DNA of 64,000 nt from Shinella daejeonensis. GTDB taxonomy: Bacteria > Pseudomonadota > Alphaproteobacteria > Rhizobiales > Rhizobiaceae. A model generated the notes under the pieces. It worked only from the letters and a program-made list of their open reading frames with translations, had not been told where the DNA came from and did no database searches. Numbering within the stretch: position 1 is the first letter of the stretch; each line of letters opens with the position of its first letter. Below, one piece after another: positions 16,886 through 44,271 of this stretch. The translations under genes were made by a program, and so were the position numbers. The stretch spans positions 1 through 64,000 of the forward strand of contig NZ_JAHWXY010000008.1 in assembly GCF_024281235.1 (NCBI RefSeq), read 5' to 3'.

Positions 16886-16888
16886 GCC

Positions 16889-19246: not shown

Positions 19247-19303
19247 CAAGGTCCCGGCCATATGTCGGGCGTTTGAGTGGAAACGAGGAGAAAGGGTGCT
19301 GCC

Positions 19304-20143: not shown

Positions 20144-20188
20144 CGGCGGGGTGGAGCCGATGCTTTTCCCGCCGCGCCCGCGGCCTCG

Positions 20189-21133: not shown

Positions 21134-21270
21134 GGGTTCCTCTACCATATCGTATTGCAGGGCACAGCCGGACCTATCTTATAGTTTTTTTTGAAAGTGT
21201 TGGGGAATCACCGGGATTTCCGTGAAAATCATCCGGTGGCAGAAGACGATGTAACGTCTGGGAGGTCTTC

Positions 21271-22512
21271 ATGTACGAATATGCCATCGCCTGGGACTGG
21301 CTGACATTCGCCATGCGCTGGCTGCATGTCATCACCGCCATCGCCTGGATCGGCTCGTCCTTCTATTTCGTCGCGCTCGATCTCGGCTTGAGAAAACATG
21401 CGGAACTGCCGCCCGGCGCCCATGGCGAGGAATGGCAGGTGCACGGCGGCGGCTTCTATCACATCCAGAAATATCTGGTCGCGCCGGACCACATGCCCGA
21501 GCATCTCATATGGTTCAAATGGGAAAGCTACGTCACCTGGCTGTCCGGTTTCGGCATGCTCTGTCTCGTCTATTACGCCGGCGCGGATCTCTATCTGATC
21601 GATCCGAATGTGCTCGACGTCTCCAAGCCGGTGGCGATCGCCATTTCGCTCGCCTCCATCGCGCTCGGCTGGATTTTCTACGACCTCATCTGCAAGTCGC
21701 CCTTCGGCAACGACAACACGCGGCTGATGGTCCTGCTCTATTTCATCCTGGTGGCGGTCGCCTGGGGCTATACGCAGTTGTTCACCGGCCGCGCCGCCTT
21801 CCTGCATCTCGGCGCCTTCACGGCGACGATCATGTCGGCCAATGTCTTCTTCATCATCATCCCGAACCAGAAGATCGTGGTGGCCGATCTCATCGCCGGC
21901 CGCACGCCCGACGCCAAATACGGCAGGATCGCCAAGCAGCGTTCGACGCATAACAATTATCTGACGCTGCCGGTCCTGTTCCTCATGCTGTCGAACCATT
22001 ATCCGCTGGCCTTCGCGACCGCTTACAACTGGATCATCGCCTCGCTCGTCTTCCTCATGGGCGTCACCATCCGCCATTACTTCAATACCCGCCACGCCAA
22101 TGCCGGCAATCCGACCTGGACCTGGCTGGTGACCGCCCTGCTCTTCGTCGCGATCATGTGGCTGTCGACGGTGCCGAAGGTGCTGACCGGCGAAGCGGAC
22201 GAGACGAGGACGAGCGCCGCGAACACGCCCTTCCTGACGGCGGAGGCCTTTCCGCAGGTGCGCGACACGGTGCTCGGCCGCTGCGCCATGTGCCATGCCC
22301 GGGAGCCCGGCTGGGAGGGGCTGATCGTGCCGCCGAAGGGCGTCGTGCTGGAAACCGATGGCGACATCGCCGACCACGCCCGCGAAATCTACCTTCAGGC
22401 CGGCCGGTCGCACGCCATGCCGCCGGCCAATGTCACCCAGATTTCCGATAACGAGCGCCGCCTGCTCGCTGCCTGGTATGAAAACGCCGTCGACGGAGGA
22501 AAAACCCGATGA
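21271..22512 (+). CDS. puuD: Urate hydroxylase PuuD (membrane, cytochrome c domain)
   Basis: 413 aa. An integral-membrane urate-oxidising enzyme unrelated to cofactor-free uricase; it forms 5-hydroxyisourate and passes electrons to a C-terminal cytochrome c domain rather than making peroxide. About eight hydrophobic helices occupy residues 10-300 (MRWLHVITAIAWIGSSFYFVALD at the first), followed by CAMCH at 338-342 and the likely haem-ligand Met in HAMPPANVTQ near 386. It overlaps guaD by 4 bp (ATGA). It fits between xdhABC and uraH, so no separate uricase is needed. Confidence 0.95.
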   Translation: MYEYAIAWDWLTFAMRWLHVITAIAWIGSSFYFVALDLGLRKHAELPPGAHGEEWQVHGGGFYHIQKYLVAPDHMPEHLIWFKWESYVTWLSGFGMLCLVYYAGADLYLIDPNVLDVSKPVAIAISLASIALGWIFYDLICKSPFGNDNTRLMVLLYFILVAVAWGYTQLFTGRAAFLHLGAFTATIMSANVFFIIIPNQKIVVADLIAGRTPDAKYGRIAKQRSTHNNYLTLPVLFLMLSNHYPLAFATAYNWIIASLVFLMGVTIRHYFNTRHANAGNPTWTWLVTALLFVAIMWLSTVPKVLTGEADETRTSAANTPFLTAEAFPQVRDTVLGRCAMCHAREPGWEGLIVPPKGVVLETDGDIADHAREIYLQAGRSHAMPPANVTQISDNERRLLAAWYENAVDGGKTR

Positions 22513-23837
22513 GCGATCTGATCATTCGCGGCCGCGTGCTGACCTTCCTGTCCGAACCGCAGGGCATCGATGATAGCGGGGCCTATCGCTACATCGAGGA
22601 CGGCGCCGTGCTGGTGCGCGACGGCAGGATCGTCGAGACGGGCGACCATGCCGACATCCTCCGGCTTGCCGGTGCGGATGCGCGGGTGGCCGATCACCGT
22701 CCGAACCTCGTTCTGCCCGGTTTCATCGACGCGCATCTGCATTTCCCGCAGACGCAGGCGATCGCCTCCTACGGCGCGCAGCTTCTCGAATGGCTGAACA
22801 CCTATATCTTCGTCGAGGAACAGCGGTTCCAGGACCCCGGGCATGCCGCGCTCGTCGCCGGCCGTTTCATGGATGAGCTGCTGGCGAACGGCACCACGAC
22901 CGCCGCCGCCTATTGCTCGGTGCACCCGCAAAGCGTCGACGCCTATTTCACGGCGGCCGAGGCGCGGGGCATGCGGATGATCGGCGGCAAGGTGATGATG
23001 GACCGCAATGCGCCCGAAGGGCTGCGCGACACGCCGCAGCAGGGTTATGACGAGACGAAGCGGCTCATCGGGACCTGGCACGGCCGCGGCCGCGCCCATT
23101 ATGCGATCAGCCCGCGCTTCGCCATCACCTCGACGCCGGAACAGCTGGAAATGAGCGGGGCGCTGGTCGCCGAGCATCCCGATTGTCATATACAGACGCA
23201 TCTGTCGGAAAACCACGACGAGATCGCCTTCGCCACCGCGCTCTATCCGGAGGCGAAGGACTATACGGATATCTACGCCCGCTACGGACTGCTGACCGAC
23301 AGGATGCTGCTTGGCCATTGCATCCATATGAGTGACAGGGAGATTTCGGTTCTGGCGGAAACCGGGGCCGTCGGCGTCTTCTGCCCGACGTCCAACCTGT
23401 TCCTCGGCTCCGGTCTGTTCGACCGTGACCGTTTCGACCGGCTCGGCGCGCGCTGGGCGGTGGCGAGCGATGTGGGGGCTGGCACCAGTTTCTCCATGCT
23501 GGAGACGATGGACGAGGCCTACAAGGTGCTGCACCTGCAAGGCCAGCGGCTGACGCCGTTCAGTTCCTTCTATCGCCTGACGCTTGGAAATGCCCGGGCG
23601 CTCGGTCTCGATGCCCATATCGGATCGCTCCATGCGGGCGCGGACGCCGATATCGTCGTTCTGGATGCGCGCGCCAAACCGGCGATGGAATTCCGCATGC
23701 GCCGGGCCGCCTCGCTTGCCGAGGAACTGTTCATTCTCCAGACGATGGGCGACGACCGCTGCGTCGCGGAAGTCTATGTCGCCGGCGCGGAGATGAAGGC
23801 GAAGACGGTGCCGGCGCGCGTTTACGAAACGGCCTGA
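22509..23837 (+). CDS. guaD: Guanine deaminase
   Basis: 442 aa amidohydrolase converting guanine to xanthine, the substrate of XdhAB. The zinc-binding motif is GFIDAHLHFPQT, followed by the family segments QTHLSENHDEIAFA, LGHCIHMSDREI and the late Asp in SDVGAGTSFSMLETMDEAYKV. Length matches bacterial GuaD. It is translationally coupled to puuD (ATGA) and its 3' end overlaps the convergent iclR gene by 16 bp. Confidence 0.94.
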   Translation: MSDLIIRGRVLTFLSEPQGIDDSGAYRYIEDGAVLVRDGRIVETGDHADILRLAGADARVADHRPNLVLPGFIDAHLHFPQTQAIASYGAQLLEWLNTYIFVEEQRFQDPGHAALVAGRFMDELLANGTTTAAAYCSVHPQSVDAYFTAAEARGMRMIGGKVMMDRNAPEGLRDTPQQGYDETKRLIGTWHGRGRAHYAISPRFAITSTPEQLEMSGALVAEHPDCHIQTHLSENHDEIAFATALYPEAKDYTDIYARYGLLTDRMLLGHCIHMSDREISVLAETGAVGVFCPTSNLFLGSGLFDRDRFDRLGARWAVASDVGAGTSFSMLETMDEAYKVLHLQGQRLTPFSSFYRLTLGNARALGLDAHIGSLHAGADADIVVLDARAKPAMEFRMRRAASLAEELFILQTMGDDRCVAEVYVAGAEMKAKTVPARVYETA

Positions 23838-31693: not shown

Positions 31694-32560
31694 ATGTCAT
31701 CGAACAATCCGGCCATCTTCGTCTCGATGGTCGTCGCCACGCTCGGCCGGTCGAGCGAATTCGACGAGCTTCTTGCATCGCTTGCCGCCCTGAAGCGTCG
31801 CGATTTCGAGGTTATCGTCGTCGACCAGAATCCCGACGACCGCCTCGTTCCGATCATCGCGCGCTTTCAGGGCGTTCTCGATATCCGGCACCTGCGGCCA
31901 AAGATCCGGGGCCTGAGCCGGGCGCGCAATCTGGGAGCCGCCGAGGCGAAAGGGCAATGGATCCTCTTTCCGGACGACGATTGCTGGTATGCGCCCGATT
32001 TCCTCGACCGTTTCGCCGCGCTCGTCGCAAGCCGTCCGGCCGATTTCTACTGCGGCCGCGCCATCAATGCCGAGGGCGAGACGATCATGGCGCGCTTTCC
32101 CGCCGAGCCCGAAACGATCCGGCGCGAGAATGTCTGGACGACCCTGATCGAATGGGTGTTCTTCGTGCGCCGGGAGACCTTCGCCCGCTCGGAGGGTTTC
32201 GACGAGCAGCTGGGTGTCGGTGCGGGAACGCCCTGGGGCGCCTACGAGGGTCCCGACCTGGTGCTCAAGCTTCTCAAGGGTGGGGCGAGCGGTGTCTACG
32301 AACCCTCGCTGACCGGCTATCATCCGGACGAACGCGCCGGGCCGCCCTCGCCGGAAGCGGCGCGCAAGATGCGCAATTACGGCGCCGGTCTCGGTTATGT
32401 GATGCGCCGCCACGGCTACGGCTTCCTGACGTTCGCGCCGCATCTCCTGCGCCCGCTCGCCGGCATGTTCGTTTATACGGCGACGGGCCGGCCGAAGCTT
32501 GCCTATCGCTCGCGCCAGCTCCTGCTCGGCCGCTGGACGGGCTGGCGATCGGCCGCCTGA
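31694..32560 (+). CDS. Glycosyltransferase family 2 protein
   Basis: 288 aa. GT-A fold glycosyltransferase: VSMVVATLGRSSEFDELLASL at the N-terminus, the acidic sugar-nucleotide/metal motif LFPDDDCWYAPDF near residues 93-106, and a distal acceptor region (YEGPDLVLKLLKGG). No membrane segment is obvious except a weak hydrophobic stretch near the C-terminus. ATG 31694 has an AGAAGG site. It is convergent with the GH2 gene of the aminoacyl-carrier-protein operon and may belong to the same glycan pathway; donor and acceptor are unknown. Confidence 0.88.
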   Translation: MSSNNPAIFVSMVVATLGRSSEFDELLASLAALKRRDFEVIVVDQNPDDRLVPIIARFQGVLDIRHLRPKIRGLSRARNLGAAEAKGQWILFPDDDCWYAPDFLDRFAALVASRPADFYCGRAINAEGETIMARFPAEPETIRRENVWTTLIEWVFFVRRETFARSEGFDEQLGVGAGTPWGAYEGPDLVLKLLKGGASGVYEPSLTGYHPDERAGPPSPEAARKMRNYGAGLGYVMRRHGYGFLTFAPHLLRPLAGMFVYTATGRPKLAYRSRQLLLGRWTGWRSAA

Positions 32561-32581
32561 CCCGTGAAACCGGAAACGACC

Positions 32582-35026
32582 TTAGAACGAAACCGCCGCC
32601 TCTATGCCGAGGCCCCGTATCTCGCCTGACGGGCGTCCGGTCCTGTCCGGCGCCAGCGGGGTGAGGCGCACGGTCTTCACATCGCCCGGCGCCAGATGGA
32701 ACCAGTTGTCGGAAGGGCTGAAGCCCTTCGCCTCGATCATCACCGACTGGGCGAAACGATCCGCCGACAAGGCGAGCGCCCAGCCCGTCGCATCCTGTTC
32801 CAGCACCGCCGTCACCACGGCCGGGAAGATCGCGGCGCGCCGGCCTTGCGGAAAATGGAAGGCTTCGGCGAGCGTCGCGCCGTCGGCGTCCTTCAGCCGC
32901 GCCACCGTGACGTCATGGGCGGGCGGGCCGAAACGGAAGGCATAGGTCGTGTCGAAGAACGCGCCGAACAGCGCGGTCGCCGGCAGCGTGGCGTTAGAGC
33001 GGGGCGCAAGCGCCAGTTCCCGCCGGCCGCTGACGACCGGCTGCCGGCCGTGGCGAAGGCAGGAAAGCTCGATGGCGAGCGCCATGTCTTCGGGCTTTTC
33101 GTTGAGGACATGCAGATCAAGCCCGTTGGTGCCTTCGTCGGCAAGCAGGATCTGAACCGGCCGGAAGGCGCGGCGCAGGGCGTGCCAGGCGGGTTTCGGC
33201 ATGCCGGCCGCGTCGACGACGCCCCAGCCGGGACCGGCGAGCAGGTCCTGAAAGGTCCAGACCAGCGCGCCGTTGCAGGTGGAGCCGGGTCGGCGCCATT
33301 CCGCGAAGGTCGCCTCCATCACCGCGCCGCTTGCCGCGCGGGAAAGATCGAGATAGCGCGCCGGATCCTCCCGGCGCAGGCGGGCGGGATCGACGTCATA
33401 AAGCAGCGCCAGATAGTGGTCGCGAATATCCTCGAAATCCCAGGATGCGTTGCGGTCGCGCGGCACCCGGGCCTTCCAGCGCGGATCGTGCACGGCCGGC
33501 ACCGGCAGATGCGCATCGAGCGTCTGCTGTTCCGGCACATTGGCGAAGGCCAGGCTCTCGGCGGCGAAGCGCACATTGGCCCGGCGCGCGTCCTCCAGCG
33601 GCCGGCAATAGGCTCCGACGCCATAGTAATGGGTGACGCCGGCATCGGGTGAGAAGGGCATCGCCCCGCCGCTCGGCGAATTCTCCACATAGGGTACGTC
33701 CGCCCGATAGAGGGCGGCCAGTTCCGGCAGGATTTCGGTGGTGAGCGGGCCGCGACGGGCGCTTTCCGGCAGGCCGAGCATCGCCGCCTGCTGATCGATC
33801 TCGCTGCCGCCGCACAGGATGGAAAGCGACGGCGCGGCGGCTGTCGCATCGAGGAATTGCCCCACCTCGCGCCGCACGTCGGCAAGAAAGGTGTCGTCGC
33901 CGACCGGATAGTCGAAATTGGCGAACATGAAGTCCTGCCAGACCATCAGACCAAGCTCGTCGCAGAGCGCGAAGAAGTCCGGGCTCTCATAGACCATGGT
34001 GCCGCCGATGCGCAGCATATTCATGCCCGCCCGGGCCGCAAGTTGGAGCAGCGGCGCGTAGCGCGCCCGTTCGCCCGGCAGGTCGACGATGTCGGCGGTG
34101 GTCCAGACCACGCCGCGACAGAAGATGCGGACGCCGTTGACGTGGAGGGCGAAGTCGCGCCCGTCCGCTCCCCGGTCGATCTCGATGCGGCGAAAGCCGG
34201 TGCGGCCAAGCGGGCGGCGGGTGTCGCCGATCACCAGTTCGACCGGATGGAGCGCCGGGCGACCATGCGTATGCGGCCACCATGCCTCGACCTGCGGGAT
34301 CGCGAGACGGGCGGAGAAGCACCCGTCCTCGCCGCGTCGCAGCGTCGCCGCGACGCCGGCGCATTCCACCGTCGGCGGGTCGTCGCAATCCAGCGTGAGG
34401 CGCACGTCGAGCTGCCCCGTTCCGTCTTCGAGCAGGCGGGCGGCGATATGCACGTCGCGCGGGTCGCGCGGTTCCTGCCGGACGAGGCGCACCGGTCGCC
34501 AGGGGCCGGCGGCATGGATTTCCGGGCACCAGCCCGGCATCCGGCCGAGCAGCGTGGTGCGCACGAGCCGCAGGCCTTGCGGCGTGATCATCTGCGGCCG
34601 CCAGCGCGCGCGGGGCCTGCGTTTTTCGATATGGGGTCTCAGCGCCCGGAAGCAGAGGGCGAGACGGTCCTGGCCGGAAAGCTCGATCGGCAGGCGATGG
34701 CGAACATACATGCTGCCCGACGAGAGGATCGGTACGCCATTCCAGTAGACCTCGCACAGCGTGGCGAGTCCGTCGAGGACAAGCTCCGCCGCGCCGGGAG
34801 GCTCGCCGGAAAGATCGAGCAGATACCAGGCGTCGAGATGGTCGAGCGGCGCGGGCGCGGCGCGATCGAACCGGCCCGCCCGTTCCAATGCGCCGGCGAC
34901 GGTGCCGGGAACCGGCGCATCGATTGCGCCGTCGAGACCGGCAAGCCCGGCAGGATCCGCCACCGCTCCCGCCGGGGTCGTCAGCAGCCTCCAGCCCTCC
35001 GAAAGGCTCTTGCCATCCGCCGTCAT
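32582..35026 (-). CDS. Glycoside hydrolase family 2 protein (beta-mannosidase-like)
   Basis: 814 aa, no signal peptide, so probably cytoplasmic. Order: N-terminal sugar-binding jelly roll (about 10-180, DAWYLLDLSGEPPGAAELVLDGLATLCEVYWNG), Ig-like domain (about 185-285), TIM barrel (about 290-640) and C-terminal beta domains. GH2 mannosidases use a Glu in GNNE as acid/base; here the segment is ILCGGSEIDQQ (E409). The nucleophile region reads FAAESLAFANVPEQQ (E490). Both glutamates are retained in divergent surroundings. It lies 10 bp after the DUF1839 gene, last in the ACP operon. It might trim or transfer onto a small glycoside; substrate unknown. Confidence 0.85.
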   Translation of the reverse strand: MTADGKSLSEGWRLLTTPAGAVADPAGLAGLDGAIDAPVPGTVAGALERAGRFDRAAPAPLDHLDAWYLLDLSGEPPGAAELVLDGLATLCEVYWNGVPILSSGSMYVRHRLPIELSGQDRLALCFRALRPHIEKRRPRARWRPQMITPQGLRLVRTTLLGRMPGWCPEIHAAGPWRPVRLVRQEPRDPRDVHIAARLLEDGTGQLDVRLTLDCDDPPTVECAGVAATLRRGEDGCFSARLAIPQVEAWWPHTHGRPALHPVELVIGDTRRPLGRTGFRRIEIDRGADGRDFALHVNGVRIFCRGVVWTTADIVDLPGERARYAPLLQLAARAGMNMLRIGGTMVYESPDFFALCDELGLMVWQDFMFANFDYPVGDDTFLADVRREVGQFLDATAAAPSLSILCGGSEIDQQAAMLGLPESARRGPLTTEILPELAALYRADVPYVENSPSGGAMPFSPDAGVTHYYGVGAYCRPLEDARRANVRFAAESLAFANVPEQQTLDAHLPVPAVHDPRWKARVPRDRNASWDFEDIRDHYLALLYDVDPARLRREDPARYLDLSRAASGAVMEATFAEWRRPGSTCNGALVWTFQDLLAGPGWGVVDAAGMPKPAWHALRRAFRPVQILLADEGTNGLDLHVLNEKPEDMALAIELSCLRHGRQPVVSGRRELALAPRSNATLPATALFGAFFDTTYAFRFGPPAHDVTVARLKDADGATLAEAFHFPQGRRAAIFPAVVTAVLEQDATGWALALSADRFAQSVMIEAKGFSPSDNWFHLAPGDVKTVRLTPLAPDRTGRPSGEIRGLGIEAAVSF

Positions 35027-35036
35027 GGCTTCTTCC

Positions 35037-36005
35037 TCAATCGAGACGCGCCGAAAGCGCGGCCATCAGCCTGTCCCAGGCCTCCACGGCCGGATCGAGC
35101 GCGGTGCCGAGCGGCTCGAATTTGCGGCGGGTCACGGCGCGAGCGAGCTGGAACTGCACCGATTTGGCGGTTTCGGAGATCTTTTTCGCGGCCTCCGCAG
35201 CGTCGCCGAGGCGGCCGTCCGGTGCGATCCAGTCGAAATGGGTTGCCGCCAGCTCGAAATTCGCGCCGAGCTGACGCAGCGTGTTGAACGCATATTTGTG
35301 GAAGAAGCCGAAGGGTCGCCCGGCCACGTCCTCCACCTGCGCGGGAAAGATGCTCGCGAAGGCGGCGACGGGATTGTCCTGCGGCCGGCGCTTGAAATGG
35401 AAGGCGAGCAGGCGGGCCGCCTCGCGGCGAAGATGGGCCTCGTCGGGGCGTGTGGAGGGGAGTTTCGCGAATTCCGCATAGGGCAGGAAGGGCAGGTCGT
35501 CCGGCCCGTCGTTGCGGTGGAACAGGCCGTCGAAATCCTCGCCCTCCAGGCGGAAGAAACCGCCGTTGTGAAAATAGTCGAGCACGCGGCCGTCGAGGTC
35601 GAGCCGGTTGATCGCCACCGTCGTCTTGCCGTGCTCCTGGCGGTAGGAGACGCCGCGGGTATCCGGCATGTAGTAGCTATCCATCTCCACAAGGCAGATC
35701 CGCCCGCGCGCAAGCTGCGCCAGCAGATGCGCCTCCACCCGGTCGTAGACGGCAAGCTCCGTGCAGCGGATGCCGTAGAGGGTTTCGAGATCCTCCAGCG
35801 GCACCTTGAAGAAGGTGAACTGGTCGCCCTCGAAATCCTGGGTCAAGGTGAAGCCGAGCATGGCCTCCGGCGCGGCGCCCCAGGCGTTCAGCACCTCGAT
35901 CCACAGGTCGACGTAGCAATTCGTCTCCGGCCACATGCGCTCCGCGTCGTGGAGGGCGTGCGGCCGGTAGGTCTCGGGCGAAAGCCCGGGGAAGACCGTA
36001 TCCAT
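35037..36005 (-). CDS. DUF1839 protein, proposed papain/C39-like aminoacyltransferase
   Basis: 322 aa. Named by family (DUF1839), which has no assigned function. The N-terminal half resembles the C39-peptidase/BtrH_N fold: C30 in ETNCYVDLWIEVL at the start of a helix, H125 in YRQEHGKTTVAINRLD, and D143 in GRVLDYFHNGGFFRLEGEDF, spaced like a Cys-His-Asp triad, with GRICLVEMDSYYMPDT between. The C-terminal half (about 165-322) is mainly helical. ATG 36005 lies 2 bp after the ligase stop. In butirosin synthesis BtrH moves an acyl group from a carrier protein to an amine; the same is inferred here for an aminoacyl group. Only the family and the residues are seen directly. Confidence 0.8.
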   Translation of the reverse strand: MDTVFPGLSPETYRPHALHDAERMWPETNCYVDLWIEVLNAWGAAPEAMLGFTLTQDFEGDQFTFFKVPLEDLETLYGIRCTELAVYDRVEAHLLAQLARGRICLVEMDSYYMPDTRGVSYRQEHGKTTVAINRLDLDGRVLDYFHNGGFFRLEGEDFDGLFHRNDGPDDLPFLPYAEFAKLPSTRPDEAHLRREAARLLAFHFKRRPQDNPVAAFASIFPAQVEDVAGRPFGFFHKYAFNTLRQLGANFELAATHFDWIAPDGRLGDAAEAAKKISETAKSVQFQLARAVTRRKFEPLGTALDPAVEAWDRLMAALSARLD

Positions 36006-36007
36006 GT

Positions 36008-36922
36008 TCAGCCCGGGTATCCGAGCGCCTCGCGAACGGCTTGCGGCCATTCGGCGATCTCCATCCCGTGGCGCGAGAACAGTGCGAGCGCGATGCGTTC
36101 CAGGCCGAAACCGACGCAGGCGGTGTGCGCCACGCTGCCGTCTTCGAGCGTGAGGCCCCATTTCGCGCCGAAGGCGTCCTGATGATAGTTGAAGCTCATG
36201 CAGGCCGTCGGCTTGGCCGCCGAGGTGACGGGAATGAGCAGTTCGAACTTGAGGTTCTGGTCGCGCTGGTTGTTGGCCAGCATGCGCCCGGCACGGCCGA
36301 AGAACGGATCGTTGGCGACGTCGATCGCCACGTCGAGCCCGACCTTGTCCATCATCTCCAGCCCGCGATCCATCCAGCTCTGGCGGAAGTTCGTGACGTG
36401 TTCCTGCGTGCCCATGCAGACATATTCGCGCATGCGGAACAATTGCTGGCGGGCCGGATCGTTCGACGGTTCGTGGCGGAAGCAATAGGATTGCAGGTCG
36501 TAGAGCCCGCCGCCGGCCGGCAGCGGCCCGCGCCTGGCGATCGTCGGATAGAGCGGATAGCAGGCCGCCGGCGTCAGCACGATATCGGTGGCCTTCTGCT
36601 CCTGCGTCCAGTCGCTGCCGACCTCCATGCATTGCAGCAGGCTCATGTGGTCGAGGTCGCCGCCGCAGAAACTGTGCACGGTGCCGGCAAGCTGGGGAAA
36701 GCTCTTCATGTAGCCGCTGGTTTCGAAATGCGCGCGGTTCATGCCCGGCGGAAAGCGCATGGCCTCCGCGCCGTCGCCGCCGCCATAGGCGTCGATCATC
36801 CGCTCGAAGCGGGCGATCACGTCCTCGAAGGCGCCGCCGCGGCCGTAGAGGCCTTCGACGCCGGTGTCGATCAGCAGACCGGCGTCGAACAGGCGGTCGA
36901 GAAGGGAAGATTGCATATCCAT
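36008..36922 (-). CDS. Amino acid:[carrier protein] ligase (class II aaRS-like, SerRS homologue)
   Basis: 304 aa, equivalent to the catalytic core of seryl-tRNA synthetase without the tRNA-binding coiled coil. Class II motif 2 is [21 protein letters not shown] (R149, E151, R163, R165) and motif 3 is [12 protein letters not shown] (271-282). C121, E166 and C269 match the zinc ligands of the Bradyrhizobium glycine:CP ligase described by Mocibob and colleagues (C131, E176, C279 as I recall, a constant offset of 10). The enzyme activates a small amino acid, probably glycine or alanine, as aminoacyl-AMP and loads it on the phosphopantetheine of the nearby carrier protein. It is 4 bp downstream of the dehydrogenase-like gene. 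Confidence 0.92.
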
Positions 36923-36926
36923 GGTT

Positions 36927-38099
36927 TCACCCCGTCAGGCTGGTGTCCTGCTTGTGAACGAGCAGCAGGTTCGATGTATTGCCGAGAATGCGGTCGTTCG
37001 AGATCATGAGCTGCGCCGAATGGGCGTCGCGCAGATGCCGGCCGAGACTGTAGGGCGTGCCGTTCTTGTAGCCCATGATGCCGCAGATCAGCATGGCGTG
37101 GTTGACGATGGAAAGGATCGTCTCCGAGGAGGCGACCTTCACATTGTTCATCGTGACGGCGAAGCCCATGGAGGAAAGCCGGTCGGCATCCGCCCTGGCG
37201 GCCTCGTATTCCCCAAGGCCGGCGATGGTGTTCGACCTCACCAGTTGCAGAAGGTTGGAGGCTTCCGCCAGCCGCAGCGCGCCGGGCGGCGTGACGCCGG
37301 GGGTCTTGCGCGCGGCGGCGCGGACGAAGGCCTGCGCGCGGGCGACCGCGTTGACCGCGATGCCGTACCAGACCGCGCTCCACAGGAGATGCGAGGTGGC
37401 GAGCATTGACTGGGCGGCGATTTCGGCAAACGGTTTCGGCAGGATCTGCTCCGCCGGCGCTTCGCCCTGAAAGAGATAGCCGTCGGAACAGGTGCCGCGC
37501 ATGCCGAGCGTGTCCCAGACATGGGTGCGCTCCAGCGTGTATTGGTCCCGGGTGAAGACGGTCATCACCTGATCGGCGGAGGCCGCATCCGCATGGGAGC
37601 GGGAGGTGACGAGAATCGCGTCGGCATGCGCGCCGTAGGAAATGACGGTCGCATCCTTGGTCAGCCGGCAACGGCCATCCGCAACCTCGATGGCGCAGAT
37701 GCTGTTGCGCAGGTTGCCGCCGATGCCGCCTTCCGTCGTGGCGGAGGCGAGCAGCAGCTGCCCGTCGACGATGCGGCGCATGAAGGCGCGGTGCCAGTCG
37801 CTGTCGGCCCCGTGCGACACCAGGCTCGAAAGCTTGATGTGGTGCATGGCGAACACCATCGCGGCTGCCGAGCAGCCCTGGCCGATCAGCGAGCAGATCT
37901 CGGCGATATCGGAGAGGCCGGCGTCCTCGCCGCCCAGGTCCTCCGGAATCTGGATGGAAAGCAGGCGCTCGGCGATCATCGCGTCGACCGCTTCCTGCGG
38001 GAAGCGCGCGTCGACGTCCACCGTGTCGGCGTGCGCAGCGGCCACGGCGGCAACGCGCTGGGCGCGTGCGGCGAGGCTCGAACCGGCGCTCATGGTCAT
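36927..38099 (-). CDS. Acyl-CoA dehydrogenase-like flavoprotein of the aminoacyl-carrier-protein operon
   Basis: 390 aa with acyl-CoA-dehydrogenase architecture: helical N-domain (about 5-115), beta domain with the FAD segment ([16 protein letters not shown], about 120-135) and a C-terminal four-helix domain. The usual C-terminal YEGTxEIQR motif that supplies the catalytic Glu is replaced by [15 protein letters not shown], so ordinary alpha,beta-dehydrogenation is doubtful. It overlaps the carrier-protein gene by 4 bp (ATGA) and is followed after 4 bp by the ligase gene. It may oxidise the carrier-bound aminoacyl group, as prolyl-PCP oxidases do, or act on the acceptor; both are inference. 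Confidence 0.87.
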
Positions 38100-38350
38100 G
38101 CGACGGCTTCCCTGTCGCCGACCAGACTTCCCACCGCATCCGTGATGGCGGCGATGTTCTGGAAGGATTTGCGGTTCAGCAGGTTGTCGGGAAACTCCAC
38201 GTCGAAGGCTTCCTCGACCGCCAGCATGACCTGCACGGAGGCGAAGGAGGAAAGGCCCGCCGCATAGAGATCGGCAGTGTCGGCAATCTGGTCGACCGGC
38301 ATCGCAAGGCCGCCGTGTTTCGTCAGAATGTCACGAATCGTCTGTTGCAT
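38096..38350 (-). CDS. Acyl/aminoacyl carrier protein
   Basis: 84 aa. Four-helix carrier protein with the phosphopantetheine attachment Ser at S35 in AAGLSSFASVQVMLAVEEAFDVEFPD; the usual DSL is SSF, as in the small carrier proteins served by aaRS-like ligases. ATG 38350 has an AAGGAGA site; an in-frame start 21 codons upstream is not supported. First gene of the five-gene leftward operon ACP - dehydrogenase-like - ligase - DUF1839 - GH2, whose junctions are overlaps of 4 bp or gaps of 2-10 bp. It presumably holds the activated amino acid. Confidence 0.9.
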   Translation of the reverse strand: MQQTIRDILTKHGGLAMPVDQIADTADLYAAGLSSFASVQVMLAVEEAFDVEFPDNLLNRKSFQNIAAITDAVGSLVGDREAVA

Positions 38351-38689
38351 GGCCGTCGTCTCCTTCTTGCCGTTCGGTGTCCCGTGCACGTGGCAGGCGT
38401 ATTCTTGCGGCAAGCAATAGCGCCGGGATCATAAGATCGGCTGAAAGGATATGGATAAGAATCGGTGAAAGGGAATTTCAGGACAACCACCGGGTGAGGG
38501 CGCTTCCGGCCGGGAAGACAGCGTTTTCCGGGAGGGCCCGCACTTTCCTTGCGCCGCGGGAGCGGAGAATTGAAGCTTTGTTAACCATCTTCTGGGAGCC
38601 TGTACCTATCGGTCGTCGTGCGTCCCGCCCGCACGGCGATATCCCTCAAACAGGCATGCCGGCCCATCTGGCGGCCATTCGGGCACGCG
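38351..38689. other. 339-bp divergent intergenic region between the carrier-protein operon and the polysaccharide operon
   Basis: No gene seen. It should hold the promoters of both divergent operons. Only weak candidates are visible (for example ttgtta near 38580 with a later tacctat), and no palindromic operator could be identified. Confidence 0.4.
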
Positions 38690-40726
38690 ATGGATATCGA
38701 CGTCTTTCAATTGCCGGCGATCATCTGGAGAAGGTTTCACTATGTGATCCTTTGCGTGCTGGTCTGCGTCCTCCTCGCACTCGCCTTCGTGCTGACGCAG
38801 AAGCCGTTCTATCGCTCGACGGCGGAAATCTACATCGACGTGCAGCGGGGGCCGGTGGTCGGCGCCGATACGGGGATCACGACGGATGCCCAGCAGGTGG
38901 TCGCAAGCCAGATCTACGTCCTGCAATCGCGCCATGTCCTCAGCGATGTGGTGAAGCGGCTGGAGCTCGAAAAGGATCCCTATCTTGCCGGCGGTCTGCG
39001 CGCCGCCGCCGGCGGCGATCCCGTCGATCGCGTGGTCAATGCGCTTCTCGACAACCTGATCGTCGAGCGGGCCGGCGATTCCTACGTCTTCTCCATTACC
39101 GTCAAGCATCGTGACGGCGAAACGGCCGCCCGTATCGCCAATGCCATCGGCGAGAGCTATCTGCATCTGTCCGACGCCTCCCATTTCGATGCCAGCGTCC
39201 GCACCTCCGAAAGCATCGCCGGACAGACGGTGGAATTGCGCAAGCGCGTGCTCGATGCGCGTGCGGCGGTGGAAAGTTTCCGTACGGAGAGCGGCCTGCT
39301 TAGCACCGGCCAGCAGGGTCTCATTACGGATCAGGAGCTTGCCGCGCTCAACCAGCAACTCATCGTTGCGCGCCAGCAGGCCGAACAACAGAAGACGGCC
39401 TATGAACAGGCGCACCAGCTCAACCTTTCCGCCGTGGAATCGGGAGCGATTCCGGAGGCGTTGCAATCGGCCGCGCTCACCGCGTTGCGCAATCGCTATG
39501 CCCTGATGCTCGACCGGCAGGCCGAGCTTGCCGCCAATCTCGGCAATGGCCATCCGCAGATGAAGGCGGTGCGCTCGCAGGTCGCCAGCATGAAATCGGC
39601 CGTCGAAGGAGAACTCGGCCGCATTCGTGAAATGACCGAGAACACCTACGAGCGCGCCAAGGCCAATCTCGATTTCGTGCAGAAGCGTTTTGACGAGCAG
39701 ACCGCCGCCAACGGCGACAACGGCAAGCTTCGCTTCCGCCTGGCGCAATTGATCAGCGAGGCGGACGCCCTCGATGCGGTCTACAAGGCGTTTCTGACGC
39801 GCGCCGAGGAACTCGGTCGCCAGCAGGGTCTCGACAGCGGCAATTCACGGATCATCTCGCAAGCGGTTCCCTCCGGAAAGCCGATCCGTGCGCCACGCCT
39901 GCTGGTGCTGATCGCCGCGGTGCTGTTCGGCACGGCGGCCGGAGGGGCTCTTGCCGTGCTGCGGGAGATCCTGGCTGGCGGAAAACGCCCGGAAAGGGAT
40001 CTGGAGGCGAAGACCGGCGCGCCCGTGCTTGCGGTCATCGAGAAGGAGCGGCAGGCCCCCGCCCGGCAGGGCTGGAGCGGAAAGCTCGCCCGCGTCGTCC
40101 CCTTCATCCGCGAGCCGGCCGGCCATGACGGTCCGCCGCGTATTTCCGGTTTCACCCGCGCAGCCTATCTTCTGGACGCGCAACTGACGGCGGACGGTCC
40201 CGTCGCCGTCGCGGTGCTGTCGGCTGGCGGCGCGGGCCGGGGCGTGGCCGCCATCGGCATCGCCGGGGAATTGCGTGCGCTCGGCAAGGACGTGCTCTTC
40301 GCCGACGGCCGTTTGCGCGCGCCCGAGCGCGGCCTGCTGCCGCGTTCGCACGGTTCTGTTCGCATCTCCACGGCGACCGCCCGGCTGCGGGACGGCGGGG
40401 AGCGTCCCGACCGGACGCAGGGCCTCGCCGATCTGTTGCAGATCCGGCGGCTTGGCGCGGGCGGCCTGCGTCAGGTGACGGCGCTGTCTTCGGCCCGCGT
40501 CAGCACGGCCGTCCGGGATATGCATGCCGATATTCTCGTTATCGATTGCTGCGGCACGCCGGCGGAAGCGAACCTGCCGGCGATCCTGCGCCGGGTCGAT
40601 GCGATTGTCGTCGTTTCCGCCGCCGGTGCGGCTGGCGGTGAGACGCTCGACGCGCTCGTCGCCGAGATTGCGCCGTGGCGTGACCGCCTCGTCGGCAATA
40701 TCCTTGTCGGCGACCGGGCGGCTTAG
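38690..40726 (+). CDS. Polysaccharide chain-length/export protein (Wzz/ExoP type) with degenerate kinase domain
   Basis: 678 aa from ATG 38690 (MDIDVFQLPAIIWRRFHYVIL). N-terminal membrane helix (about 17-36), Wzz periplasmic domain, a long coiled coil (about 180-370, ELRKRVLDARAAVESF and RQQAEQQKTAYEQAHQ), a second helix (about 405-425), then a cytoplasmic domain like a BY-kinase. At the Walker A position it reads VLSAGGAGRGVAAIG: the GKS/GKT is gone, and no Tyr-rich tail is present. The Walker B-like DILVIDCCGTP remains. It probably controls polysaccharide polymerisation or export without phosphorylation. The ribosome site is weak. Confidence 0.87.
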   Translation: MDIDVFQLPAIIWRRFHYVILCVLVCVLLALAFVLTQKPFYRSTAEIYIDVQRGPVVGADTGITTDAQQVVASQIYVLQSRHVLSDVVKRLELEKDPYLAGGLRAAAGGDPVDRVVNALLDNLIVERAGDSYVFSITVKHRDGETAARIANAIGESYLHLSDASHFDASVRTSESIAGQTVELRKRVLDARAAVESFRTESGLLSTGQQGLITDQELAALNQQLIVARQQAEQQKTAYEQAHQLNLSAVESGAIPEALQSAALTALRNRYALMLDRQAELAANLGNGHPQMKAVRSQVASMKSAVEGELGRIREMTENTYERAKANLDFVQKRFDEQTAANGDNGKLRFRLAQLISEADALDAVYKAFLTRAEELGRQQGLDSGNSRIISQAVPSGKPIRAPRLLVLIAAVLFGTAAGGALAVLREILAGGKRPERDLEAKTGAPVLAVIEKERQAPARQGWSGKLARVVPFIREPAGHDGPPRISGFTRAAYLLDAQLTADGPVAVAVLSAGGAGRGVAAIGIAGELRALGKDVLFADGRLRAPERGLLPRSHGSVRISTATARLRDGGERPDRTQGLADLLQIRRLGAGGLRQVTALSSARVSTAVRDMHADILVIDCCGTPAEANLPAILRRVDAIVVVSAAGAAGGETLDALVAEIAPWRDRLVGNILVGDRAA

Positions 40727-40736
40727 GGAGGCGGAG

Positions 40737-41972
40737 ATGACCTATGCGTCCCCGGCCGGACGCCTGGACCTGGCGATGGCCCGCGACACGCCGGCCGCCG
40801 CGGCCGCGCGGCTTGTCGCGACGTTTGCGGTTATCGGCGGCCTCGTCTTCAACGCCGGCCTGTGTTTCGTCAACACCCGCGTCATGGGGATTTCCGAAAG
40901 TCATGTGATGATGGCGGAAATGGTCATCGTCGCCGCCGCCTTCCTTGCGGCGATGACGCGCCGGTCCGCGCTCTATCTGCTCGTCGCGGTCTTCGTCAGC
41001 TACATGATGCTGCTTTTCATGCTGCGGGGCGGTCAGATCAACCTCAAGTCGCTCCGCGACATCCTGATCCCCTTCGCCTTCTTCTTCCTCGGCCGTCGCA
41101 TCGCCGATCCGCGCGTCGGCGACCGGCTGGTGATGGTCAGCGCGGTGATCGTCGTCGCCTTCGGCCTCTTCGAATACCTGTTCCTTGAGACCTTCCTCGA
41201 TTACTTCAACGTCATCGGCTATTATCTCGCGCGCGGCTCGGTCTCGCTCAAGCAGACCTATGGCGAGACGCGCGGCCTGTTCATTTCCGGGGAACGGCCG
41301 GAAGCGCGGACCATCCTGCCCTTCCTCGGCCAGCATCGGGTGTCGTCGGTGTTCCTGGAGCCGGTCTCCATGGGAAATTTCGCGGTGGTGATCTATAGCT
41401 GGGCGCTCTTTCGCGGCCGGGCTTTCGCCGGCCGTTTCCTCGTCTTCGCCCTCGCCTTTGCGGTGGTGGCGCTGGCGGATGCCCGTTTCGGCCTCTACAC
41501 CTGCCTCCTGGCGACGCTGCTCTATCCCGTCTATCGCTTTCTGCCGCGGCTTCTGTGGGGCGTGCTGCCCTTCCTGCTGCTCGCGGTGCTGGCGATCTAT
41601 GGCATCACCTCCGTCGAGGGCGGCGGGCCGAACGATATCTCCGGCCGCTTCGCGGTGACGGCGCATATCCTGACGCAATTGTCGCCGGGTGTGGTGTTCG
41701 GTGTCGAGACGACGGATATCTTCGTCGCCGATTCGGGCCTGGCCTATTCGCTGACCGCCTTCGGCCTTTTCGGCTTCATCGCGCTGTGGATGCTCTTCGT
41801 GCATACACCTTTCGCCGATGCGAAGGCCTGGCGCTTCCATTCGATGATGATCGTCTATCTGCTGCTGCTGATGCTGATCAGCGACTCGTTCTATTCGATC
41901 AAGACGGCGGCGCTTCTGTGGTTCCTGCTCGGCGTTTCGGCGGTCGTGCGCTGGAGCGACCGGCCGGGCTGA
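40737..41972 (+). CDS. Wzy/O-antigen ligase-like membrane protein
   Basis: 411 aa, about ten hydrophobic segments (for example 25-45, 55-95 and 100-150 region pairs, and 250-300), with a hydrophilic periplasmic loop around residues 165-215 (YYLARGSVSLKQTYGETRGLFISGERPEARTILPFLGQHRVSSVF) and the EPVSMGNF segment of the Wzy_C type. Likely polymerises repeat units of an exopolysaccharide. ATG 40737 has a GGGAGGCGGAG site 11 bp after the Wzz-like gene. Ligase versus polymerase cannot be told from sequence alone; the Wzz neighbour favours polymerase. Confidence 0.82.
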   Translation: MTYASPAGRLDLAMARDTPAAAAARLVATFAVIGGLVFNAGLCFVNTRVMGISESHVMMAEMVIVAAAFLAAMTRRSALYLLVAVFVSYMMLLFMLRGGQINLKSLRDILIPFAFFFLGRRIADPRVGDRLVMVSAVIVVAFGLFEYLFLETFLDYFNVIGYYLARGSVSLKQTYGETRGLFISGERPEARTILPFLGQHRVSSVFLEPVSMGNFAVVIYSWALFRGRAFAGRFLVFALAFAVVALADARFGLYTCLLATLLYPVYRFLPRLLWGVLPFLLLAVLAIYGITSVEGGGPNDISGRFAVTAHILTQLSPGVVFGVETTDIFVADSGLAYSLTAFGLFGFIALWMLFVHTPFADAKAWRFHSMMIVYLLLLMLISDSFYSIKTAALLWFLLGVSAVVRWSDRPG

Positions 41973-41984
41973 CAAACTGGCCGG

Positions 41985-43022
41985 CTACCGCCGAAGCGCC
42001 ATGCAGCCGGCCTTGTCCGCGCCGGAAAGGACGGCCGCCGTCTGCGGCCTGTCCTCGCCATCGACGGGCTGGATGTTGAGCGGCTCCTCCTTCGGCCACC
42101 AGTCGCCGCCCGCCCAATAGGTCCATCCCAGCCAGACGTCGGCTTCGCGCGCCATCAGGTCCGTCATGCGCGAAAGCCCGTCGAGGCAGGCCTTGTCGGC
42201 CGAGCCGCCGAACTCGCCGAGAAAACCTCGCTGGCCGTTGCGGCGCAGCCATTGCGTGAAGCGTTCCAGCGCGGCGACCGCGTCGTCCGCCCGTGCGCAT
42301 CCCGGCGTCGTGCCGGAAAAATCGTCGTCGAGATATTGATGGACTTCATAGGCGTAATTGTCCTGCGGGTCGCGGACGCCGAGCATGACGGTGCCGTTCG
42401 CCCCGCCCGGCCGCTCGTTTTCCCAGCTGTGGGCGCCCGACCAGATCGTCCCGGGCACAAGAACGAGGTTCTTCGCGCCCGTTTCGCGGATGGAGGCGAT
42501 GGCTGCATTGGCGGCGGAAAGCCACTGCGTCGCGGTGACGTCGTAGGGTTCGTTCATCAGACCGAAGAAGACGCCGTCGTCCTTGCCGTAGTCTTCGGCG
42601 AGGCGACGCCAGAGGTCCGCGAAAGCGGCGTCGGGAAGGTCGGGCGTGCCGATCTGCGCCTTGCCGTAATAGCCGTAATTATGCGGATCGAGGATCACCG
42701 TCAGGCCGGCGCGGCGCAAGGCGGAGACAGCCTCGGCGAGCCGTTCGCGTTCCGCCGTGTCGAAGGCGCGGCCGGGATGCGGCTGCAAGCGTTCCCAGAG
42801 AAATGGCAGGCGGACGGCATTGAAGCCCTTGCCGGCGAAATAGGCGACCGCCTTTTGCGTGGGGTAGATATAGTCGCGTCCGTGGACACCCGCGCCGTCG
42901 CCGAATTCCGCACCCGCGAGATTGACCCCGCGCAGGCAGGCGGCCTGTGCCTGAAGCGGCAGCGCCAGTGCTATGGCGAAAGACAGTAGCCGGCTAAAGA
43001 AAATCTTGAGGGAAGGGCGCAT
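41985..43022 (-). CDS. Secreted glycoside hydrolase family 5 (endoglucanase-like)
   Basis: 345 aa. Signal peptide MRPSLKIFFSRLLSFAIALA continuing to LPLQAQA, cleaved before ACLRGVNLAGAEFGD. Catalytic residues of GH5 are visible: acid/base Glu in FGLMNEPYDVT and nucleophile Glu in GFLGEFGGS; the substrate-site His/Tyr are in YEVHQYLDDDFSG. It is 43 bp downstream of the GT4 gene. A periplasmic or exported glucanase beside polymerase genes usually edits or releases the nascent polysaccharide. ATG 43022 has a GGAGAC site. Confidence 0.9.
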   Translation of the reverse strand: MRPSLKIFFSRLLSFAIALALPLQAQAACLRGVNLAGAEFGDGAGVHGRDYIYPTQKAVAYFAGKGFNAVRLPFLWERLQPHPGRAFDTAERERLAEAVSALRRAGLTVILDPHNYGYYGKAQIGTPDLPDAAFADLWRRLAEDYGKDDGVFFGLMNEPYDVTATQWLSAANAAIASIRETGAKNLVLVPGTIWSGAHSWENERPGGANGTVMLGVRDPQDNYAYEVHQYLDDDFSGTTPGCARADDAVAALERFTQWLRRNGQRGFLGEFGGSADKACLDGLSRMTDLMAREADVWLGWTYWAGGDWWPKEEPLNIQPVDGEDRPQTAAVLSGADKAGCMALRR

Positions 43023-43065
43023 GGTCGTCTCCGTTTCGGCGATGGCCGGGAGGGGTGCGCAGGCG

Positions 43066-44271
43066 CTATGCGCGACCGCCTCTTTCGGCAAGCCCGGTGG
43101 CCGGCAGGCGGCGGCGGCTGTCCTGAAGGATCGTGTGATAGACCTCCAGGTAGCGGTCGGCCACCCGTTCCCAGGAATAGGTTGCCGCTGCCGTCATCGC
43201 CGCGCGGCGATAGCCGGCCGGATCCTTTTCCAGCAGCGCGAAGGCGGCGGTCATGTCCGCGGCGGCCTTGCGGGCGTCGGAAAAGTCGCAAAGCCGGATT
43301 TCCGGATGGTTTCCGGCAAGATCGGCATAGGCGGTATTGGGGTGGAGAAGCGGCATCAGCCCGGCGCTCATCGCCTCGACGGCGACGAGGCCGAAACCCT
43401 CGTATTGCGAGGCGGAGGCAAAGAGCGAGACCTTGCCCAGAAGGTCGCGCACGGCGGCGTCCGGCAGGCCGGCGTGCAGGCCGATCCGGTCGCGCAGGCC
43501 CCGCGCCGCGATCATCGCGGCGACATCGTCGAGCGAATGATCGCCGGGCACGCCCACCACGTCGAGATGCCAGTCGGCATTTTCCGCGACAAGCTGCGTC
43601 ATGGCGTCGAACAGCCGGTCGAGCCGCTTGTTGACGGAAAAACGGCCAATGGTCACCAGACGCCGTTGCGGCGCCGGTGCGCCGGCATCGGCGAATTTCG
43701 CCGTATCCGCGCCGTTGTCGATATGGACCACGCGCCGGCCGGCGACGGTTGCGAAGGTGCGGGCGTCCTGCGCGCTGCAACCGACGATGCCGCGATAGCC
43801 AAGCGAGGAAACGCGGGTGATCGTGTTGAACCAGATCTTTTTCAGGCCGGAGAATTTCGCCGTGTGGAAGAAGCCGCCATGGGTCGTGGCGACAAGCGGC
43901 CGGCGATGCAGCGGCCACCCCCAGGCAAGCGCGTCGAAGAAGAAGTCGACCGCATGGACATGCACGATGTCGGCGTCGCGGATATAGCGGAACACCTGCG
44001 GCGCGAGCGGGTAACGGCGGCTGCCGGAAAAGGGGATGCGCACCACCTCCACGCCGTCGATCGTCTCGCGGGCGGGCAGCGTGCGGTCGGGTGCGGAAAA
44101 CAGCCGGTCGAGCGTGACGACGCGGACGCGGAAGCCGCGTGCCAGCAACTGTCCGGAAAGCTGGCGAACCACATCCTCCAGCCCGCCCCGGTTGGGCGCA
44201 TATTGCCGCACGACCTGCACGGCGAGCGGTGCGGAGCGGGCGGGCGGCGGCGGAGCATGCATTCCGGTCAT
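43066..44271 (-). CDS. Glycosyltransferase family 4 protein
   Basis: 401 aa GT-B fold enzyme. N-domain with VVRQYAPNRGGLEDVVRQLSGQLLARGFRV; C-domain with LVTIGRFSVNKRLDRLFDAM and the EX7E motif SQYEGFGLVAVEAMSAGLMPL. It adds a sugar from a nucleotide donor during polysaccharide assembly. Upstream of and co-directional with the GH5 gene, convergent with the Wzz/Wzy pair, so probably the same polysaccharide. A second Met at residue 4 is an alternative start. Confidence 0.9.
   Translation of the reverse strand: MTGMHAPPPPARSAPLAVQVVRQYAPNRGGLEDVVRQLSGQLLARGFRVRVVTLDRLFSAPDRTLPARETIDGVEVVRIPFSGSRRYPLAPQVFRYIRDADIVHVHAVDFFFDALAWGWPLHRRPLVATTHGGFFHTAKFSGLKKIWFNTITRVSSLGYRGIVGCSAQDARTFATVAGRRVVHIDNGADTAKFADAGAPAPQRRLVTIGRFSVNKRLDRLFDAMTQLVAENADWHLDVVGVPGDHSLDDVAAMIAARGLRDRIGLHAGLPDAAVRDLLGKVSLFASASQYEGFGLVAVEAMSAGLMPLLHPNTAYADLAGNHPEIRLCDFSDARKAAADMTAAFALLEKDPAGYRRAAMTAAATYSWERVADRYLEVYHTILQDSRRRLPATGLAERGGRA

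Follow-up and report, generated by a model that had tools for sequence, protein, structure and literature searches.

Relatives of seryl-tRNA synthetase (SerRS) from Bradyrhizobium and Agrobacterium that load carrier proteins reportedly prefer small amino acids, as Mocibob and colleagues are said to have found in 2010. In the Dlt system (DltA, DltC and DltB/DltD), a discrete ligase and a discrete carrier feed the modification of a glycan. Charging of carriers with amino acids by homologous ligases is described in the accessible part of a review, where the biological role of these ligases and carriers is given as unknown (PMC9437257). A note in proof published in 2010 by Iyer and colleagues, in the portion available, predicts that Atu2574, the DUF1839 protein, is the ligase linking an amino acid to the amino group of a surface sugar, with a redox enzyme modifying the amino acid (PMC2922099). 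The present analysis concerns a related five-gene cassette in a stretch of 64,000 nucleotides of Shinella daejeonensis DNA (positions 1 to 64,000 of contig NZ_JAHWXY010000008.1, assembly GCF_024281235.1; hereafter the window), which encodes a carrier protein, a flavoprotein with the acyl-CoA dehydrogenase (ACAD) fold, a SerRS-like ligase, a protein of the DUF1839 family and a glycosidase of glycoside hydrolase (GH) family 2. It is probable, when considering the evidence set out below, that this cassette forms the donor side of a pathway by which a surface polysaccharide, or its cytoplasmic repeat unit, receives an amino acid.

The neighbourhood considered in the note in proof has the same composition as the cassette, with an acyl carrier protein (ACP), a redox enzyme, Atu2574, a glycosidase and liposaccharide genes, and the idea of an amide linkage is also shared, as far as its available text goes. 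The original prediction for this stretch, which had called the product of the pathway undescribed, is thus only partly right, since an outline was already proposed from gene neighbourhoods in 2010. The fold of the Atu2574 family, a test of co-occurrence, a tandem hydrolase and a signature of the glycosidase do not occur in the portion of the note in proof at hand and are added here. In the parts available of two further papers, Atu2573 is listed once, as the hub gene of an expression module (PMC11941606), and Atu2577 appears once (PMC9790009).

The five genes are all on the minus strand, and the predicted order and spacings are borne out by their coordinates: the carrier and ACAD genes overlap by 4 bp and are followed by gaps of 4 bp (ACAD to ligase), 2 bp (ligase to DUF1839) and 10 bp (DUF1839 to GH2). 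The family searches agree with the names that had been given. The carrier (38096-38350, 84 aa), with its phosphopantetheine site at Ser35 in YAAGLSSFAS, matches the Pfam family PP-binding (PF00550) and the NCBIfam model NF005480 (114.5 bits, cut-off 72). The ligase (36008-36922, 304 aa) has a class II aminoacyl-tRNA synthetase (aaRS) core without the tRNA-binding domain; it scores above the cut-off of the NCBIfam model for amino acid--[acyl-carrier-protein] ligase (NF005479, 509.5 bits, cut-off 357) and under that of Pfam tRNA-synt_2b. Both proteins belong to the families of Bll0957 (Bradyrhizobium) and Atu2571 (Agrobacterium), represented by PDB entries 3mey, 4h2w-4h2y and 2jq4, in which ligase and carrier are found alone, unlike in the cassette. 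The proposed pairing of an amino acid:carrier ligase with its carrier agrees with the structures, as the two proteins are close homologues of the two chains of a single solved entry (4h2w, with the carrier as 4h2w_C); the ligase also resembles 3mey, and the carrier also resembles Atu2571 (2jq4). The predicted zinc-place residues of the ligase, C121, E166 and C269, are present, in conserved segments of the alignment with the Bll0957 ligase of known structure. The ligases of two collected loci, L072 and L087, were dropped, having a stop inside the extended frame. By analogy with its homologues, the ligase would adenylate a small amino acid and load it on the phosphopantetheine of Ser35. A scan of positions 38300-38700 for a promoter and a terminator found neither and is uninformative.

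The original prediction held that the five genes should travel together, and this is what the gene-neighbourhood survey finds. Among the best 80 of at least 577 relatives, the order carrier-ACAD-ligase-DUF1839-GH2 is intact in 78 loci, the exceptions being L155, whose GH2 match is split into three pieces, and L122 (R. leguminosarum Vaf-46), which is without carrier and ACAD and is not cut short by the end of a contig. The complete set of five likewise occurs side by side in 41 loci examined in further genomes and plasmids. In the family sample of 199 genomes, DUF1839 and the ligase, the latter scored above its cut-off, occur in the identical 40 genomes and lie 30-138 bp apart at 41 of 41 places. 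Locus L078 was left out of the count of gene clusters. Eight of 59 plasmid records were read, of which six have the full cassette, one has a lone DUF1839 gene and one a partial cassette. Plasmids of Azospirillum, Methylobacterium, Phyllobacterium, Mycetohabitans and Cupriavidus carry the five genes together, and the range of the cassette therefore covers both Alphaproteobacteria and Betaproteobacteria. Urate oxidase, taken from the same window as a control in 58 family genomes, is found in all 29 of those that have the cassette and in 27 of the 29 that lack it (56 of 58 in total); being near-universal, it is no control for a patchy gene and shows only that gaps in the genomes do not explain the pattern. 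Fisher values for the co-occurrence take no account of kinship among the genomes and were set aside. It is hardly credible that the cassette is a remnant or a chance cluster of genes without a shared function: the incomplete cassettes carried by two strains of R. leguminosarum would fit such an origin, but the order kept in 78 of 80 loci, the conserved active sites and the joint presence or absence within genera speak against it, and the survey already refutes it. As a separate observation on L155, another frame lies between the matched pieces of GH2, which is possibly a disrupted gene.

The system extends beyond the operon. Near GH2, many loci encode a protein of about 590 residues with two α/β-hydrolase domains, and the profile of this protein, scored on the best six first-look candidates per genome in the family sample and on the best three in a phylum sample of 398 genomes, reaches at least 448 bits in exactly the 40 cassette genomes of the family sample, the best score among the other 159 being 53 bits. 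In the phylum sample, the tandem hydrolase is found in 16 of 16 DUF1839 genomes and in one more genome, G512, and two further matches are of half length (160 and 145 bits). Cassette and hydrolase are jointly present or absent within genera g22 and g108 of the family sample and g74 and g112 of the phylum sample. A six-part system, with the hydrolase as its sixth gene, is thus real and conserved, and the dedicated route of the original prediction has to be widened, as the hydrolase co-occurs in every cassette genome sampled. This exact pattern of presence also makes the system accessible to genetics without any assumption on what its product is.

The hydrolase gene lies within 20 kb of the cassette in 31 of the 40 genomes. 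The nine others include the source genome of the window, where it is on another contig (C34/L170), and also G011 and G094, where it is on short contigs (18.8 and 9.7 kb, respectively) and may be near the cassette after all. A glycosyltransferase (GT) or flippase gene is close by in eight of these nine: a Wzx-type flippase, a GT2 and a polysaccharide deacetylase in the source genome; a flippase, a GH10, Wzy and Wzz in G128; a flippase and, as judged by eye, glycosyltransferase-like genes in G017; three GT4 in G120; a GH5 and a flippase in G061; a GT4 in G153; and a GT2 in both G057 and G094. This pattern of inheritance points to a surface polysaccharide as the likely destination of the amino acid, with the tandem hydrolase as the putative constant partner on the polysaccharide side.

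In the window, the cassette also sits inside a polysaccharide locus. On one side, convergent with the GH2 gene, is a GT2 glycosyltransferase gene (31700-32560, plus strand; PF00535). On the other side, divergent from the cassette, is the gene of a Wzz/GumC-like chain-length protein (38618-40726, plus; PF02706 and PF13807, with TIGR01005 and TIGR03017 below cut-off), followed by that of a probable Wzy-like polysaccharide polymerase (40605-41972, plus), so labelled from its position and hydrophobicity, with no family match, and by those of a glycosidase of the GH5 cellulase family (41985-43091, minus; PF00150) and a GT4 glycosyltransferase (43066-44271, minus; PF00534 and PF13439). The Wzy-like protein is found in 20 of the 199 family genomes, in 14 of them at 370 bits or more, and all 20 are among the 40 cassette genomes. 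The GT4 is matched at 367 bits or more in 23 genomes, again all with the cassette, and its weaker relatives are widespread (some match is found in 176 of 199). Thirteen of the 14 strong Wzy-like matches and 22 of the 23 strong GT4 matches lie within 20 kb of the cassette. This particular polysaccharide is thus dispensable for the cassette, but the Wzy-like and GT4 genes are seen only with the cassette. The modified repeat unit would then be polymerised and exported by proteins of the Wzx/Wzy/Wzz type.

The DUF1839 protein (35037-36005, 322 aa; PF08893, 448 bits) is the predicted transfer enzyme of the cassette. For the structure predictions, 48 DUF1839 and 34 ACAD sequences were taken from the 80 loci after filters on length and 93% identity, and the AlphaFold2 model of DUF1839 (49 sequences) has a mean pLDDT of 91.2 and a pTM of 0.90. 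In a Foldseek comparison of this model with the PDB, each of the 19 hits with E≤0.001 is AziU2-U3, CtaG or CcbD, with 316-366 alignment columns, nearly the full length and including the helical C-terminal half, and query TM scores of 0.52-0.60; the next hits have E-values of 0.02 or worse and query TM scores below 0.31. A search of the PDB by sequence gave a best E-value of 0.005, which was judged to be due to chance. AziU2-U3 and CtaG are enzymes of small-molecule pathways. In CcbD, according to the part available, carrier-bound proline is loaded on a cysteine and condensed with the amine of a thiooctose, the catalytic residues being Cys-His-Glu (PMC12945683). CcbD/LmbD and CtaG thus share with DUF1839 a fold over nearly the full length and a cysteine, and CcbD also has an aminoacyl-carrier donor and an amino-sugar acceptor; the sequence identity to DUF1839 is only 14-16%. 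The open-licence paper that names DUF1839 describes, in its accessible portion, a papain-like fold with a swapped C-T/S-H triad, an order that differs from that of CcbD, and guesses at a role on cell-wall glycans (PMC10318531).

In an alignment of 29 of the 46 collected DUF1839 sequences with that of the window, and when counting all 46 and the window, the corresponding residues are well preserved: C30 in 44 of 47, T/S129 in 44 of 47 and H146 in 47 of 47. C30 and T129 are lost jointly in three in-cassette copies (L047:14741-15721, L077:9434-10417 and L081:7400-8377). A second, C30-bearing DUF1839 exists in those genomes, nearby for L047 and L081 and on another contig (L078) in G447, and the copy without C30/T129 is likely, as judged from these sequences, to be the non-catalytic partner of the C30 copy. 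Fold, residues and gene order are consistent with a carrier-protein-dependent cysteine amide synthase with C30/T129/H146, in which Cys30 would take the acyl group and form an amide with the nitrogen of an amino sugar, as in CcbD. The hand-over to an acceptor, as originally predicted, gains support from the modelled structure, in which DUF1839 is a plausible transfer enzyme, and a surface polysaccharide can now be added as the indicated acceptor.

Editing thioesterases with the α/β-hydrolase fold are common in carrier systems, and the tandem hydrolase could be such an enzyme, clearing mischarged carrier while DUF1839 alone performs the transfer. The amide-synthase fold of DUF1839 is in agreement with this division of labour, which is nevertheless somewhat unlikely when considering the nucleophile elbow of the hydrolase. 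In the second half of the protein the elbow residue is a cysteine, in G-x-C-[SA]-G, in 27 of 27 collected copies as well as in the source-genome and G512 copies, instead of the serine of a hydrolase, and a cysteine is also found at the aligned place in six of six exosortase A (XrtA) hydrolase 1 proteins (L180-L185); this fits thioester transfer. PHA synthase provides an analogy for thioester transfer by a cysteine elbow. In the first half, 25 aligned sequences (of 27 collected) have Gly (15), Arg (nine) or Ser (one) at the elbow. The L051 copy was dropped, having a stop inside the extended frame. The elbow cysteine of the second half suggests thioester-dependent acyl transfer by the tandem hydrolase, hydrolysis being possible as well.

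The hydrolase is moreover the only candidate acceptor-side enzyme in a three-gene group of G512 (L186:8013-11808), which also argues against a purely editing role. In this group an amino-acid adenylation enzyme, a carrier of the cassette family and the tandem hydrolase are encoded in a row, with Wzz/Wzc upstream; the adenylation enzyme matches TIGR01733 (346 bits, cut-off 317) and stays below the cut-off of the DltA model (277 bits), and the carrier matches NF005480 (110 bits, cut-off 72). We read this arrangement, found in one genome, as the exchange of one amino-acid activating enzyme for another of unrelated origin, while the carrier and the acceptor-side enzyme behind it stay the same.

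A further comparison is possible with the XrtA loci, where an AMP-ligase, an ACP, hydrolases 2 and 1 and a decarboxylase are encoded; here the hydrolases are separate proteins, unlike the tandem protein, and the ligase is an adenylating AMP-ligase. The first half of the L045 tandem hydrolase resembles hydrolase 2 and its second half hydrolase 1, at about 109 bits each, which does not reach the cut-offs of TIGR03100 and TIGR03101 (168 and 203, respectively), and the source-genome copy scores 75 bits with TIGR03100. As judged by these scores, the tandem hydrolase is related to XrtA hydrolases 1 and 2 and is not a member of their families. Three of six XrtA loci above cut-off were read. AMP-ligase, ACP and hydrolases are adjacent in two of them (L194 and L195), the ACP of L195 being recognised by alignment and its hydrolase 2 scoring only 44 bits; L193 has the hydrolases, the decarboxylase and the ACP, with no AMP-ligase within 20 kb. 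A function for the XrtA hydrolases was not found in the open-licence literature, and the name hydrolase may be a misnomer for hydrolase 1. These likenesses permit a tentative generalisation, possible although speculative, that polysaccharide aminoacylation in Gram-negative bacteria uses interchangeable activators (the SerRS-like ligase, a stand-alone adenylation enzyme or the XrtA AMP-ligase), related carriers and a tandem hydrolase with a cysteine elbow that would transfer the amino acid to the repeat unit; the DUF1839 cassette would be a version with an added CcbD-like amide synthase, an ACAD-fold flavoprotein without the catalytic base and a GH2 enzyme that tolerates substitution at C2. Aminoacylation of a surface polysaccharide, if true of the cassette, would give the carrier-loading enzymes a purpose, suggest a function for the XrtA hydrolase 1 and 2 genes and for DUF1839, and mean that relatives of aminoacyl-tRNA synthetases feed glycan chemistry.

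Several observations weigh against a polysaccharide as the destination of the amino acid. The fold of DUF1839 alone does not favour one, since AziU2-U3 and CtaG serve small-molecule pathways. Strong Wzy-like matches occur in only 14 of the 40 cassette genomes and strong GT4 matches in only 23, and no single polysaccharide is therefore fixed. None of the polysaccharide genes of the window is found within 10 kb of the cassette in the Agrobacterium loci, the Phyllobacterium plasmid has no annotated polysaccharide gene of the kind seen in the window, and no polysaccharide gene is present among the eight neighbouring frames scanned around the G011 hydrolase. A lone DUF1839 gene is present on a conjugative Rhizobium plasmid (L044:11971-12957), and of the two partial cassettes in R. 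leguminosarum strains, L089 and L122, the former has a whole DUF1839 amid pieces of ligase and GH2 (L089:11468-13468), with transposase genes and a nonribosomal peptide synthetase gene nearby. G512 is not among the DUF1839 genomes, and no relative of the ligase, ACAD, DUF1839 or GH2 is found in the 20 kb read there, so that DUF1839 is not needed in every version of the system that contains the hydrolase. The possible editing role of the hydrolase, discussed above, belongs to the same side of the balance.

In a rival reading the product is a soluble small molecule, an aminoacyl-amino-sugar or a dipeptide-like compound, which is released or kept in the cell, the link to polysaccharide genes being regulatory or historical. 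The nearest solved structures of DUF1839 are natural-product enzymes, the carrier has a weak likeness to the cispentacin carrier AmcB (30.6 bits, cut-off 80), some plasmid cassettes are away from polysaccharide genes, and transporter genes are near the cassette in three plasmid loci. Such a product is nonetheless unlikely, because the cassette co-occurs exactly with the hydrolase, hydrolases away from the cassette stand beside glycosyltransferase or flippase genes in eight of nine cases, and the Wzy-like protein and the GT4 ortholog are found only in cassette genomes. Attachment to a surface polysaccharide remains the preferred reading.

The two other enzymes of the cassette can be placed in this pathway more loosely. 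The flavoprotein (36927-38099, 390 aa) has the ACAD fold, as seen from Acyl-CoA_dh_N (PF02771) and from PDB and fold matches, but comparison of folds cannot tell dehydrogenases apart from DszC or KijD3, the matches including DnmZ, KijD3 and ordinary dehydrogenases. DnmZ and KijD3 are amine-oxidising relatives of the ACAD family. In an alignment of 17 of the 41 collected sequences with that of the window, the catalytic glutamate (the MCAD-376 place) is absent and replaced by Ile in 17 of 18 and by Val in one of 18 sequences (Ile366 in the window), whereas N368 and R370 are invariant in the 18; His237 is near the place of a conserved arginine. These residue equivalences come from pairwise alignments and the customary numbering. 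The oxidation that the original prediction had considered possible is thus doubtful as acyl-CoA-dehydrogenase chemistry, which has been set aside as the step of this protein, the usual glutamate being missing in 18 of 18. The flavoprotein may modify the carrier-bound aminoacyl group, and a flavin-dependent oxygenation would be likelier than a dehydrogenation of the acyl-CoA type.

The GH2 protein (32582-35026, 814 aa; Glyco_hydro_2_N2 and Ig_mannosidase) is beta-mannosidase-like, its nearest solved relatives by sequence being beta-mannosidases. When 15 of the 41 collected sequences and that of the window are aligned, both catalytic glutamates, the acid/base and the nucleophile, are invariant, and the acid/base motif is SE instead of NE in 16 of 16; the place of the beta-mannosidase Trp/His near C2/C3 is, by eye from the alignment, Gly in 12 of 16, Ser in three and Pro in one, and never Trp. 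According to the parts available of PMC12243196, SD occurs in beta-glucosaminidases and SE with Gly in GH2_14, and the serine preceding the acid/base is argued to remove the steric conflict that an amino group at C2 would have with the usual asparagine; Ser468 in CsxA is noted in the accessible part of PMC6566704. Compared by signature, the cassette enzymes have the SE described for GH2_14 in 16 of 16 sequences and the Gly in 12 of 16, and may or may not belong to that subfamily. Two GH2_14 enzymes are slow beta-galactosidases on pNP substrates and inactive on mannobiose, as far as the available text of PMC12243196 goes, and these activities tell neither for nor against an amino-sugar substrate. 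The signature is compatible with an enzyme that may meet a C2-substituted sugar. No signal peptide was seen when it was looked for by eye, and the enzyme, probably cytosolic and with room at C2, might act on the amino sugar or its glycoside in trimming, recycling or quality control.

Another possibility is that a lipid or a protein is decorated instead, and a nearby translation-factor locus would then hint at the target. In many Rhizobium-type loci (L101-L166), a trio of genes for elongation factor P (EF-P), a class II aaRS paralogue and a radical SAM enzyme, probably efp-epmA-epmB, is found upstream of the carrier gene. Of the 44 loci in which the distance was measured, 41 have 147-363 bp, and the remaining ones have 854, 2070 and 5301 bp. 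Such a spacing exceeds what an operon overlap would allow, and in Shinella, most Agrobacterium loci, Azospirillum and Burkholderiales the cassette, with its five genes unchanged, has another location, which makes decoration of a lipid or a protein very unlikely. A link to EF-P was accordingly not adopted as the function, its repeated position notwithstanding, as the trio is absent in other lineages.

Three family genomes have weaker ligase matches without DUF1839. In G066 and G142 the ligase gene is placed between those of an MBOAT protein and a carrier-like protein (recognised by eye in G066 and by PF00550 in G142), a Dlt-like trio with a SerRS-like ligase, which again suggests glycan acylation; in G022 a partial ligase match lies between an AMP-binding enzyme and a carrier. 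Separate ligase and carrier are common to the Dlt system and the cassette, whereas the cassette proteins, which seem to be cytosolic, also comprise a redox protein and a glycosidase. A scan of ten genes of the cassette and its surroundings (31700-44271) found no MBOAT acyltransferase. Trios of MBOAT protein, SerRS-like ligase and carrier without DUF1839 can be located at L087:1215-4166 and at about 9090-12177 of L086. Elsewhere, the window holds genes of purine catabolism at 15404-23837, which encode xanthine dehydrogenase subunits, XdhC, a LysR regulator, a urate oxidase N-domain protein and an amidohydrolase.

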